64,000 bases of DNA, from assembly GCF_002742335.1 (NCBI RefSeq), contig NZ_MDGR01000007.1, positions 3,786,501 to 3,850,500 of the forward strand, in the 5' to 3' direction. This stretch comes from Reichenbachiella sp. 5M10 (GTDB lineage: Bacteria; Bacteroidota; Bacteroidia; Cytophagales; Cyclobacteriaceae). Shown here in pieces: positions 979 through 6,916 of this stretch. The notes below the pieces were generated by a model. The model made no database searches. It saw nothing but the letters and a program-made list of their open reading frames with translations, and was not told the DNA's origin. Every line of letters begins with the position of its first letter. The first letter of the stretch is position 1. The translations under genes and the position numbers were made by a program.

Positions 979-1110
979 TTAGTCATTCGCCCACTTCAGG
1001 AATTCGACAACTCCTACTACTGACCCTGTCCCTACTGCCACTCCAACCACATACCCAAGTACCAAAGGAAAAACACCTCCGTCGATTTCCTTTAACTCGT
1101 CATTACTCAT
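979..1110 (-). CDS. Double-glycine leader peptide (bacteriocin-like), 43 aa
   Basis: A 43-codon frame starting at ATG 1110. It begins MSNDELKEIDGG, a classic double-glycine leader with the usual acidic/hydrophobic L-x-x-I-D-G-G end. After cleavage it would give a roughly 31-residue core starting VFPLVLGYVV, rich in Gly and Val with G-x-x-x-G spacing and an amphipathic end (VEFLKWAND). Such leaders are recognised by C39 peptidase-containing ABC exporters. It is the third short gene of a minus-strand series (1427, 1265, 1110) downstream of an HTH regulator and exporter fragments. Whether the product is antimicrobial, a signal or neither cannot be told from sequence. Confidence 0.68.
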   Translation of the reverse strand: MSNDELKEIDGGVFPLVLGYVVGVAVGTGSVVGVVEFLKWAND

Positions 1111-1169
1111 GACAGTAAGTTCCTAATCATTTAACATTCCATCAGTCATAATTAATAACCTTAAAAAGG

Positions 1170-1265
1170 TTAACAAAAAACATAATACACAACGGCACCA
1201 ATAACTCCACATGCAATACCAAAAAGTACTCCTCGTAAGAATCGGTTCATAAATCCTGACTCCAT
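1170..1265 (-). CDS. Very small hydrophobic peptide, 31 aa, between two GG-leader genes
   Basis: A 31-codon frame from ATG 1265, only 6 nt after the stop of the upstream GG-peptide gene, so translational coupling is plausible. The product starts MESGFMNRFLRG and continues as one hydrophobic segment with G-x-x-x-G spacing (FGIACGVIGAVVYY), ending in Cys. It has no double-glycine leader. It could be a leaderless peptide, a small immunity or membrane-anchor protein, or a chance frame. Its spacing and the glycine pattern shared with its neighbours favour a real gene. Confidence 0.45.
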   Translation of the reverse strand: MESGFMNRFLRGVLFGIACGVIGAVVYYVFC

Positions 1266-1271
1266 AATCAA

Positions 1272-1427
1272 TTAAGTCAAAGCGTAATATGCACCAGCGC
1301 CTGTAGCTCCAACTCCAGCACCTCTAAAAAAAGCTCCCCAATTGAAGCTCAAAAACATCCCTCCATCAACTTCATTCATCTCAGATTGTCTCATCTCCAC
1401 AAGACCCAATTCATTCAAATTTTCCAT
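1272..1427 (-). CDS. Double-glycine leader peptide (bacteriocin-like), 51 aa
   Basis: A 51-codon frame from ATG 1427. A 23-residue leader ends in the double-glycine site (MRQSEMNEVDGG). The predicted core starts MFLSFNWGAFF and continues RGAGVGATGAGAYYALT, that is 28 residues, glycine/alanine-rich, cationic at one Arg and lacking Cys. The leader has the E-M-x-x-V-D-G-G pattern typical of Bacteroidetes bacteriocin-type signal sequences. It lies 61 nt after the HTH gene at 1489-1821 on the same strand and starts the three-peptide cluster. Confidence 0.68.
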   Translation of the reverse strand: MENLNELGLVEMRQSEMNEVDGGMFLSFNWGAFFRGAGVGATGAGAYYALT

Positions 1428-1488: not shown

Positions 1489-1821
1489 CTAGCATGCAAC
1501 TAAGGTAGATTCGCAAAGTGAAATAAAATTGCACTCTGACTCTTTTAACAAAAAACCACCATCCGTCTTCATAACAACCTCTGAGCTAAGCACTTCAAAA
1601 TGAAAATCAATTTTAATTCTTCGATCTGTATAATAGTAGGTCTTATACACTTTGTCATACACGATGTCCGCGCCTAAATTTTTAAGAGACTCTATATGAT
1701 TGTACAGTTGTCTCTTGCTGATATTTAGACGTATTGCCAGCTCATCAGGTGTGCCTGTTGACTCAGAGATGATGAGCTTGTTGATCAATTGGATTCTCTC
1801 TATCTGTTTGATGAAATTCAT
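1489..1821 (-). CDS. Small HTH-domain protein linked to a peptide-export locus
   Basis: 110 residues. Residues about 7-55 (RIQLINKLI, then GTPDELAIRLNISKRQLYNHIESLKNLGADIVYD) form a DeoR/HTH_11-type winged helix-turn-helix, with the recognition helix around ISKRQLYNHIE. The rest (KTYYYTDRRIKIDFHFEV) may be the wing and a short dimer segment; there is no ligand-binding domain. The start overlaps the stop of the ABC-transporter fragment by 4 nt, and the gene precedes the GG-leader peptides. It may regulate the cluster, which is inference from position. The frame is intact although the exporter genes beside it are broken. Confidence 0.65.
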   Translation of the reverse strand: MNFIKQIERIQLINKLIISESTGTPDELAIRLNISKRQLYNHIESLKNLGADIVYDKVYKTYYYTDRRIKIDFHFEVLSSEVVMKTDGGFLLKESECNFISLCESTLVAC

Positions 1822-2300
1822 GAGGGTTGATTTTGGTAAGACAATGTATTGATATTCTCCTGCTGCCCCATCAATTGCTGATAGGGTTGATTGGACTGAG
1901 AAAGTTCTTCATGGCTGCCATTGGCGATGATATCCCCATTCTCTAGCAGCACTATCTGATCTGCCATGGTCACGGCATTGAGTCGATGTGAGGTAGAGAT
2001 GACGGTTTTGCCCTGATCTCTAAGTTTCAGCATGGTTTTGAGCACGAATGCTTCAGACTTCTTATCCAAGGCAGAAGTCGCCTCATCAAAAATTACTACC
2101 TCAGGATCGGCGTACAATGTCCTGAGAATCGCCAATCGCTGACGCTGACCGATGGAGAGGTTGGTGCCGTTTTCTCCCAAATAGGCAGAAAACCCTCCCT
2201 GTAATTCATTGATAAAGCCTAAGACACCCAACTCATGTGCCAATTGTACGATTCTTTGGGTATCTGGCTGAAACTCCCCCAAAGCGATGTTTTCGATCAC
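1818..2300 (-). pseudogene. ABC transporter fragment: C-terminal half of the nucleotide-binding domain
   Basis: About 160 codons that match only the distal part of an ABC ATPase of the bacteriocin/peptide exporter type. Present are the start-region motif ENIALGEF, a signature NLSIGQRQR (LSGGQ variant), Walker B VVIFDEATSALD and the H-loop STSHRL. Missing are the peptidase and membrane domains, Walker A and the Q-loop. The frame begins at a GTG directly after HlyD-like sequence in another frame, with a stop two codons upstream. The simplest reading is that an internal deletion removed the proximal ABC gene and the distal HlyD gene. It cannot hydrolyse ATP by itself. Confidence 0.75.
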
Positions 2301-2706
2301 TTCTCAAACGATTAACACGGACTGGATCAGACAACAATTCTAAATCTAGCGTGTATTGATCAAGTTGAGATTTTCTTGTGCGTATTCTGTCCACTTCAGA
2401 AATAATAACCCTATCATCAAACTTCACCAAGGTATCTCCCTGGTTTACACTAAGGTTCTCTTCTAAACGTGAAGAGACTATTCTAGCCGTAACAGGTGCT
2501 TGAATCGTGTACTTTTTGCCCATGGAGGTGATTCTTCCAGAGGTAGACTCGATGACATCCACAGATACCAATGGCAAAATGACAAGAAATATAAGTATGC
2601 AACTGAGTAGGACTAAGTAAATCCTATTGGTAGGGCGGTTGATTTTGAATGTATAATTTTCTACACTCGCTTGAATAAACTCTTCTGGGAAGAACTCCTT
2701 TTTCAT
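2233..2706 (-). pseudogene. HlyD-family secretion protein, truncated by deletion
   Basis: The first ~133 of 157 codons are a HlyD-type membrane-fusion adaptor: a short cytoplasmic start, one membrane segment (about residues 29-48, YLVLLSCILIFLVILPLV), then the first barrel/biotinyl-like motifs (SGRITSMGKKYTIQAPVTARI, split around residue 70, and VNQGDTLVKFDD). The start of the hairpin coiled coil follows (RKSQLDQYTLDLELL). After about residue 133 it reads out of frame through ABC-transporter sequence (RSDRKHRFGGVSARYPKNRTIGT region) and stops. The coiled coil and C-terminal barrel are lost, so a working adaptor is unlikely. Confidence 0.75.
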
Positions 2707-3418: not shown

Positions 3419-3599
3419 AATTGATAATATTTAAAAGATTAAACATGGATTGATATGAAATCCTAACTGAGCGCTCTGCAAGATATGATTGATTATCAGC
3501 AACATCTATACCAGTAGATGGCTTATAAATGCTAAAGATTGTTAAAAAAAACCGGAGTAAGCAGTAGTACTTTCTACCATTGACTCATTGTTTTATTAG

Positions 3600-3699
3600 G
3601 CTTGCGCAAGCAGGGCTGGTTCGTTGCGCAAGTAGAGCGTTGAGCTTGCGCAAGCAGGGTTGGTGGGTTGCGCAACGAACCAGCCCTGCTTGCGCAAGC
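3600..3699. repeat. Five-copy palindrome array with exact 22-bp period
   Basis: Five copies of the palindrome TTGCGCAA occur at 3602, 3624, 3646, 3668 and 3690, exactly 22 bp apart. Copies 1, 3 and 5 extend to CTTGCGCAAG. The four 14-nt spacers are related: spacers 1 and 3 are direct near-copies (GCAGGGCTGGTTCG; GCAGGGTTGGTGGG), and spacer 4 is the exact reverse complement of spacer 1. As a result 3600-3631 and 3668-3699 form a perfect 32-bp inverted repeat. It lies between the serine hydrolase gene and the HU-like gene, both on the minus strand. Frames crossing it (3585-3800, 3596-3778) are artefacts. Confidence 0.9.
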
Positions 3700-3838
3700 T
3701 CCAGACAAAAGTAACTGTACGTGATGAAGCCAGTTGCACTGCTTTGGTTTGATCGGAAGTTGAGCACAAATGCATCACCTATGAATAAGTCAACGATCAT
3801 CTCTATGCTTATCCCCTATTTCACAAGAGCAAAACGCA

Positions 3839-6448: not shown

Positions 6449-6916
6449 TATTTAGACCCGCACTCTTTACTGTAATGACCTCCTCAGGCTAAAGAGCATT
6501 TTTTGGATGTCTTGTATCTCTTTATTCAATTGATTAAACTGTTCATCCGTCAGTAACCCCACCCGCTTAGAAATAATCAGCTGTGTCTCTAACTCACATG
6601 AACTTCCGTATGAATAAGAAAGGAAATTATTGAAATCCTTGTCCGTTGATCTCCCCGATCCTTCTGCTATATTAGAAGAAATCGATACAGAACACCTTCT
6701 GACTTGGCTCGTCATTCCATACTTCTCATCAGACGGAAAAGAAGAAGTCTCTTGATACACTTTGACTGCTAAATCAACAGACCTCTTCCAAACATTAAGT
6801 TCCTTGTAATTGTGCATAAGATTGGATTTGGTTTAGGAGTTAAGATAGCAAAATCACTAGGTTATCCCAACTCCAACTAATCTCAATACACAATACCTAC
6901 GACTCGGTACTAAATA
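6449..6916 (-). mobile_element. Putative intervening-sequence-like insertion carrying a four-helix-bundle gene
   Basis: The segment between E2 and lpdA ends in near-perfect inverted repeats. TATTTAGACCCG is at 6449-6460 on the plus strand, and TATTTAGTACCG reads on the minus strand from 6916 to 6905 (10 of 12 identical). The right repeat includes the last codons of the E2 gene, so its TAG stop lies inside the repeat. The only gene inside is the S23-type four-helix-bundle protein at 6467-6817. Such genes are best known from 23S rRNA intervening sequences. Boundaries are inferred from the repeats alone. Confidence 0.5.
6467..6817 (-). CDS. Four-helix-bundle protein (23S rRNA intervening-sequence protein family)
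   Basis: 116 residues. The start YKELNVWKRSVDLAVKVY, the central S-x-Q-V-R-R-x-S-V-S-I-x-x-N-I-A-E-G-x-G-R and the end helices (QDIQKMLFSLRRSL) match the S23/IVS four-helix-bundle family (PF05635). The biochemical role of the family is not established; it is a pentameric basic-grooved bundle often found within rRNA insertions or as orphan genes. Here it breaks the usual E2-E3 gene order. It is co-oriented with the operon, so it could be transcribed with it. Confidence 0.88.
   Translation of the reverse strand: MHNYKELNVWKRSVDLAVKVYQETSSFPSDEKYGMTSQVRRCSVSISSNIAEGSGRSTDKDFNNFLSYSYGSSCELETQLIISKRVGLLTDEQFNQLNKEIQDIQKMLFSLRRSLQ

Follow-up and report, generated by a model that had tools for sequence, protein, structure and literature searches.

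A double-glycine peptide locus with a truncated exporter gene in Reichenbachiella, and a linked winged-HTH regulator that carries a double-glycine motif of its own

Three small peptide genes and the remains of an exporter

The stretch of Reichenbachiella sp. 5M10 DNA analyzed here (the window) is 64,000 nucleotides long, and positions are counted from its first letter. A first-pass annotation had pointed to two short frames, of 51 and 43 codons, with double-glycine (GG) leaders and to a 31-codon frame between them. We confirmed these frames, all of them on the minus strand, and found that they lie at the end of a longer locus (979-2706), in which an adaptor gene is followed by those for a C39 exporter, a winged-HTH regulator, and the peptides. 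The locus contains the following features:

2233-2706, minus strand: HlyD-type adaptor, N-terminal fragment; the frame overlaps the exporter fragment
2302-2324, minus strand: deletion junction, 23 nt between two stretches that match the relative G068
1818-2300, minus strand: exporter, C-terminal fragment comprising part of the ATPase domain; the C39 domain, the membrane region, and the start of the ATPase domain are missing
1489-1821, minus strand: winged-HTH regulator; its own GG is encoded at 1560-1555 and is followed by a tail of 21 residues
1514-1538, minus strand: palindrome CAGAGTG-N11-CACTTTG, inside the HTH gene and 111 nt before the pep51 ATG; presumed operator
1500-1507, minus strand: promoter-box-like sequence TACCTTAG, 6 nt behind the palindrome
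1427-1272, minus strand: pep51, 51 codons, double-glycine leader with predicted cleavage behind residue 23
1265-1170 (ATG at 1265, stop at 1170), minus strand: pep31, 31 codons, leaderless, hydrophobic, with a GxxxG stretch
1110-979, minus strand: pep43, 43 codons, short double-glycine leader with predicted cleavage behind residue 12

The pep51 product divides into the leader MENLNELGLVEMRQSEMNEVDGG and the core MFLSFNWGAFFRGAGVGATGAGAYYALT, and the pep43 product divides into MSNDELKEIDGG and VFPLVLGYVVGVAVGTGSVVGVVEFLKWAND. Both leaders have Glu at −8, hydrophobic residues at −7 and −4, and GG at −2/−1, which is the pattern set out in PMC6363468, and both have Met, not Leu, at −12. The pep31 ATG lies 6 nt after the pep51 stop codon, as the first-pass annotation had noted, and in the pep51 reading frame. 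By eye, the FLRG and GxxxG stretch of pep31 is similar to the pep51 core.

Profile searches, which had been suggested as a check on all three frames, bore out one of them. The pep43 product scored 27.5 bits against PF10439 (Pfam Bacteriocin_IIc; cutoff, 27.1) and 26.7 bits against TIGR03949 (NCBIfam lactobin A/cerein 7B; cutoff, 21.5). Since both cutoffs were passed, we regard the pep43 assignment as above chance. For pep51 and pep31, the profile scan found no Pfam or NCBIfam family above its cutoff. The locus resembles those of class IIb bacteriocins (TIGR03949, PF10439) in its short precursors, its GG leaders, and its hydrophobic, Gly-rich cores with GxxxG; class IIb genes are also often paired and accompanied by a C39 exporter and an accessory protein, which here are found in intact relatives. 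It differs from them in its Bacteroidota host, in a winged-HTH regulator that has a single domain and bears a GG motif itself, in the loss of the exporter from the window's genome, and in that no immunity gene was identified by test. Bacteroidetocins, too, come from Bacteroidota, carry a GG leader, and have an exporter of the C39 type, and PMC6671954 describes them as having at least two Cys residues, leaders of 15 to 16 residues, and adjoining genes for a membrane protein and, in most cases, a thiol oxidoreductase. The cores of pep51 and pep43 depart from that description in containing no Cys.

The exporter and adaptor genes are joined across a deletion. In G068, a genome of the same genus, the locus is intact and encodes a 395-residue adaptor, a 727-residue exporter (with C39, membrane, and ATPase regions), the HTH protein, and a peptide with a pep51-type leader. 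DNA identity to G068 is 84% on the adaptor side of the junction and 87% on the exporter side, and about 2.5 kb is absent relative to G068, joining adaptor codon ~132 to exporter codon ~568 (G068 numbering). The adaptor fragment matched TIGR01000 (E 8e-9) and TIGR01843 (E 1.6e-6), both below cutoff. A search of the window's genome for the C39 domain (PF03412) gave no match, while 8 of 14 control genomes matched. Within the genus, four of eight genomes had a C39 match, that in G197 covering model positions 3-48 only.

Because the exporter and adaptor are reduced to fragments and the C39 domain was not found, cleavage and export of the peptides by the C39 route have probably been lost in this genome, judging from its sequence, and the deletion leaves the window peptides as orphans. 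The first-pass annotation had pictured a bacteriocin-like or signaling secreted-peptide system. The bacteriocin-like class held up, given the pep43 scores and the G068 locus, but export in this genome probably does not. The exporter fragment itself still looks constrained when compared with G068 (dN/dS of 0.07), which counts against decay of the locus; either the loss is therefore recent or the deletion is an assembly error.

With the exporter lost, the three frames might be nonfunctional fossils that make no product now, and a leaderless pep31 and a short pep43 leader would fit such a fate. Against this, the leaders are intact, pep43 lies above curated cutoffs, and neither the palindrome nor the promoter-like box is missing. 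We give the fossil reading appreciable weight but consider it the less probable outcome.

The first-pass annotation had named a lack of conservation in related genomes as grounds for refutation. Conservation was found for the pep51 leader but not, with one exception, for the cores. The 23-residue leader recurs with 3 to 6 residue differences in one G068 gene and in three genes of G154, whose cores differ from that of pep51. A single peptide core is common to G068 and G154; cores are otherwise not conserved. When a profile of 7 such peptides was run against the eight genus genomes, it matched 2 peptides in Reichenbachiella sp. 5M10, 6 in G154, and 1 in G068, gave a single weak match in G197 (E 0.04), and found none in the other four. 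As a lone query, pep43 found its own genome and 1 of 195 other family genomes (G010; E 0.009). No orthologous core for a selection test was found.

Several neighboring arrangements were seen in these relatives. At a contig end of G010 (L077, 1-3200 of G010:C2, minus strand), at least 14 near-identical GG-leader peptide genes lie in tandem with a 174-bp period. Past the peptides of G068 (L060, 3084-7704) and G154 (L059, 3766-7776) lie frames that by eye encode an ABC ATPase, a membrane protein, a larger protein, and a thioredoxin-like protein, none of which appears in the window-side ORF list (L058). These frames are candidates for immunity or maturation functions. A CAAX-type (Rce1-like) protein in G154 is a further candidate for immunity, but no more than that.

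A double-glycine motif in the winged-HTH regulator

The window regulator matched PF08279 (HTH_11) at 29.4 bits (cutoff, 25). Among three of its relatives, L096 scored above this cutoff and L060 and L124 scored below it. No NCBIfam model was above cutoff for the window protein (matches to E 1) or for L060, L096, and L124 (matches to E 0.1). A structural model of the window regulator, built from a 32-row alignment, consists of a high-confidence winged HTH, a short separate helix at residues 80-85 (moderate confidence), GG at residues 88-89, and a tail with pLDDT under 50. When this model was compared with solved structures, the closest folds were NiaR and BirA, none of them at E ≤ 0.001.

HTH protein matches were found in 87 of 196 family genomes, many of them weak. 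A genome scan yielded 58 named loci from Cyclobacteriaceae and their relatives, Flavobacterium, and Marinilabiliales. Alignment of the window regulator with family members revealed a near-invariant GG close to the C terminus. This motif, like the palindrome upstream of pep51, is new relative to the first-pass annotation. We tallied it in 59 regulators, comprising 57 of the 58 named loci plus the window and G068; L153, whose start fell outside the pattern used and which carries AG, is not in this set. GG was present in 47 regulators, AG in 6, and neither in 6. Three of the last six are Cyclobacterium proteins that end before the motif and adjoin an exporter gene of intact length. In the other three (L139, L151, and L152), the frame is broken or different, and the GG part of L151 and L152 lies in another frame.

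The residues ahead of the GG are also largely those of a leader. According to PMC6363468, the C39 recognition pattern consists of Leu at −12, Glu at −8, Leu at −7, and a hydrophobic residue at −4, with position −7 mattering for cutting. In the 52 motif-bearing regulators other than that of the window, −12 is L or I in 50, −8 is E in 43, and −4 is I, V, or L in 44. The window regulator is atypical, with V at −8 and T at −4. Position −7 is one of LIVMFWY in only 11 of 53 regulators versus 29 of 39 palindrome-linked peptides. At the level of sequence, then, the regulator motif is most of the C39 recognition pattern, with a departure at −7. The GG of the 47 regulators is spelled in 12 codon combinations, so it is the protein sequence that is kept. 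The tail past the GG ranges from 2 to 41 residues.

The family sits beside C39 exporter genes. Using a C39 profile built from the loci themselves and flanks of up to 6 kb, we found a match, partial in some cases, near the regulator in 49 of the 58 named loci. The match lies upstream of the regulator in 30 of the 49, directly so in 29 (with gaps of −4 to 175 nt); in the thirtieth, L118, the exporter frame is split. The other 19, all from Flavobacterium, have the match 1.4 to 5.5 kb downstream. Nine loci had no C39 match. In five of them (L097, L100, L117, L132, and L138), the C-terminal part of an exporter lies directly upstream, at a contig edge in the case of L117; no exporter part was seen in the other four (L105, L130, L140, and L153).

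As in the window, the fragments in L097, L100, L132, and L138 lack the N-terminal C39 part and lie directly upstream of the HTH gene. Either the exporter was lost several times, or its end was duplicated together with the regulator. L097 shares its contig with a complete locus, L122. Shorter HTH relatives without the GG motif were seen at L066 (1140-6124) and L073 (673-900), and the one in L073 adjoins a long ORF that by eye resembles a second C39 exporter type.

The regulator might nonetheless be an ordinary winged-HTH protein, its GG being structural or accidental and having no tie to the exporter. Cutting of the regulator has no direct support, its −7 residue is poor, and shorter HTH relatives near other C39 exporters do without the GG. 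However, the GG is kept over all those codon spellings together with the leader residues at −12, −8, and −4, the stretch that bears it adjoins a C39 exporter gene, and the model places a short helix and then a disordered tail there. We consider an ordinary regulator the less likely reading. PMC6363468 reports that a C39 domain was seen binding a short helix before the GG.

A palindrome ahead of double-glycine peptide genes

In Flavobacterium, the DNA that encodes the regulator tail is itself conserved. Across 17 sequences, the tail behind the GG had a dS of 0.17, compared with 0.51 for the GG motif itself and 1.64 for the HTH part. The tail DNA reads TTCCGTC-N11-GACGGAA and then TAnnTTTG, and copies of it occur elsewhere in several loci, mostly ahead of further GG-peptide genes. 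The low synonymous divergence of the tail is therefore explained by a palindrome and a promoter-like box that are also copied outside the gene.

We searched the 58 loci for TTCCGT-N12..14-ACGGAA with at most one mismatch and found 48 distinct sites in 33 loci; one mononucleotide shuffle per locus gave no site. A GG-leader ORF follows the palindrome at 39 of the 48 sites in one direction and at 0 of the 48 in the other. These counts include two sites, L097:8001 and L130:3789, that look unrelated by sequence. TAnnTTTG, which we take to be the Bacteroidota −7 box, lies exactly 6 nt behind 30 of the 48 sites. The canonical palindrome was not recognized in 25 of the 58 loci, and a looser search for other palindromes gave nothing consistent there.

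The window palindrome differs from the canonical TTCCGT type, while that of G068 is canonical with one mismatch. The window 25-mer recurs identically before three GG genes of G154, 100 to 111 nt ahead of the ATG, and a form with 3 mismatches precedes a GG gene of Marinoscillum (L098). In G154, the 3' end of the HTH gene also occurs as three truncated copies (L059, 8020-8319, 13703-13984, and 14758-14910), each with the palindrome and then a GG gene. On the basis of these copies, the promoter seems to spread through duplication of the regulator's end.

The overlap of palindrome and tail bears on two other accounts of the GG and what follows it. We rejected the idea that the GG is a by-product of the DNA element. 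Its 12 codon combinations argue against this, and 8 of the 12 copies shown start behind the GG codons (L123, L124, L137, L140, L148, L150, and two in L152); of the other four, L133 and the two in L151 extend further upstream, and L143 starts before the GG position. The second account, that the tail is an exported signal peptide, draws on a properly placed leader motif, on the disordered tail that follows it in the model, and on the likeness of tails across Flavobacterium species. However, tail length varies widely, the conservation extends to synonymous sites, the tail DNA is also found as a promoter element away from the gene so that the conservation is largely the DNA's, and position −7 is poor. 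A secreted Flavobacterium tail had been our main reading and was dropped after the synonymous-site test and the discovery of the extragenic copies; we now think an exported tail quite improbable.

A second palindrome, TTCTCGAGAA, was seen in Flavobacterium loci within AACAAAAT...ATTTTGTT (for example, L123, 6320-6355). It has the promoter-like box on one side and the GG gene on the other.

Possible coupling of peptide expression to export

Our preferred interpretation, to which we assign a probability of roughly 60%, is that the window holds a decayed version of a common Bacteroidota peptide-secretion locus whose intact relatives are controlled through the palindrome by a regulator whose GG docks on the exporter. 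By binding the palindrome, which lies within or close to the 3' end of the regulator gene and also ahead of other GG-peptide genes, the regulator would control the promoters of these genes. The precursors, which may be antimicrobial, would be cleaved behind the GG and leave the cell by way of the C39 exporter and adaptor. Because the regulator has its own GG leader motif, we propose that its C terminus docks in the C39 domain of the exporter, either as a pseudosubstrate or as a slow substrate. The regulator would then be held or cut by an exporter that is idle and left free by one that is busy, which would link expression of the peptides to the capacity for export. In the window's genome, such a circuit would presumably be inactive. 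What the sequences themselves show is the layout of the locus, the deletion, the linkage to C39 genes, the conserved GG, and the palindrome ahead of peptide genes.

We favor docking or slow cutting over an exported signal because position −7 is poor, the tail ranges so widely in length, and its conservation is largely that of the DNA. Certain observations speak against docking, namely, the same poor −7, the AG in place of GG in 6 of 53 regulators, and the motif-less Cyclobacterium regulators beside an exporter of intact length. The proposal as a whole must also accommodate the 25 loci in which the palindrome went unrecognized, the atypical window motif, and the moderate confidence of helix 80-85. 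Still more tentative, and in our estimation falling somewhat short of even odds, is the generalization that a widespread Bacteroidota regulator family bears the recognition site of its adjacent exporter and, as a substrate mimic, mediates export-coupled feedback in which the exporter's peptidase domain would both sense and set how strongly its cargo is expressed.

Bacteriocin pathways are usually pictured with the peptide exporter as their passive end. A regulator with the peptides' own cutting tag raises the idea that the exporter may talk back to the genes. If this is true, a regulator with the exporter's processing signal would connect export capacity directly, at the molecular level, to gene expression. 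In flagella, FlgM and sigma-28 make expression depend on the state of the export machine, which itself handles the regulator; the export machine and the type of regulator are different there, and the coupling in our case is one that we infer only. HetC of Nostoc is a C39 exporter tied to differentiation, and its authors propose (PMC10986499) that cutting of a substrate could leave an N-terminal piece able to act on a transcription regulator. HetC has no known substrate, whereas here the GG motif sits on the regulator itself. A literature search at the level of titles and abstract starts, with many journals outside its scope, found no description of a regulator with a GG motif.

The palindrome offers a DNA handle for small GG-peptide genes in Flavobacterium, Cyclobacteriaceae, and Marinilabiliales genomes, and the window offers a system without its exporter in which the precursors, regulator, and promoter remain.

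Two other features of the window lie outside the locus. Short repeats at 3574-3800 produce look-alike ORFs in several frames on both strands. A 116-residue protein is encoded at 6467-6817 on the minus strand; it looks like a four-helix-bundle 23S rRNA intervening-sequence protein.
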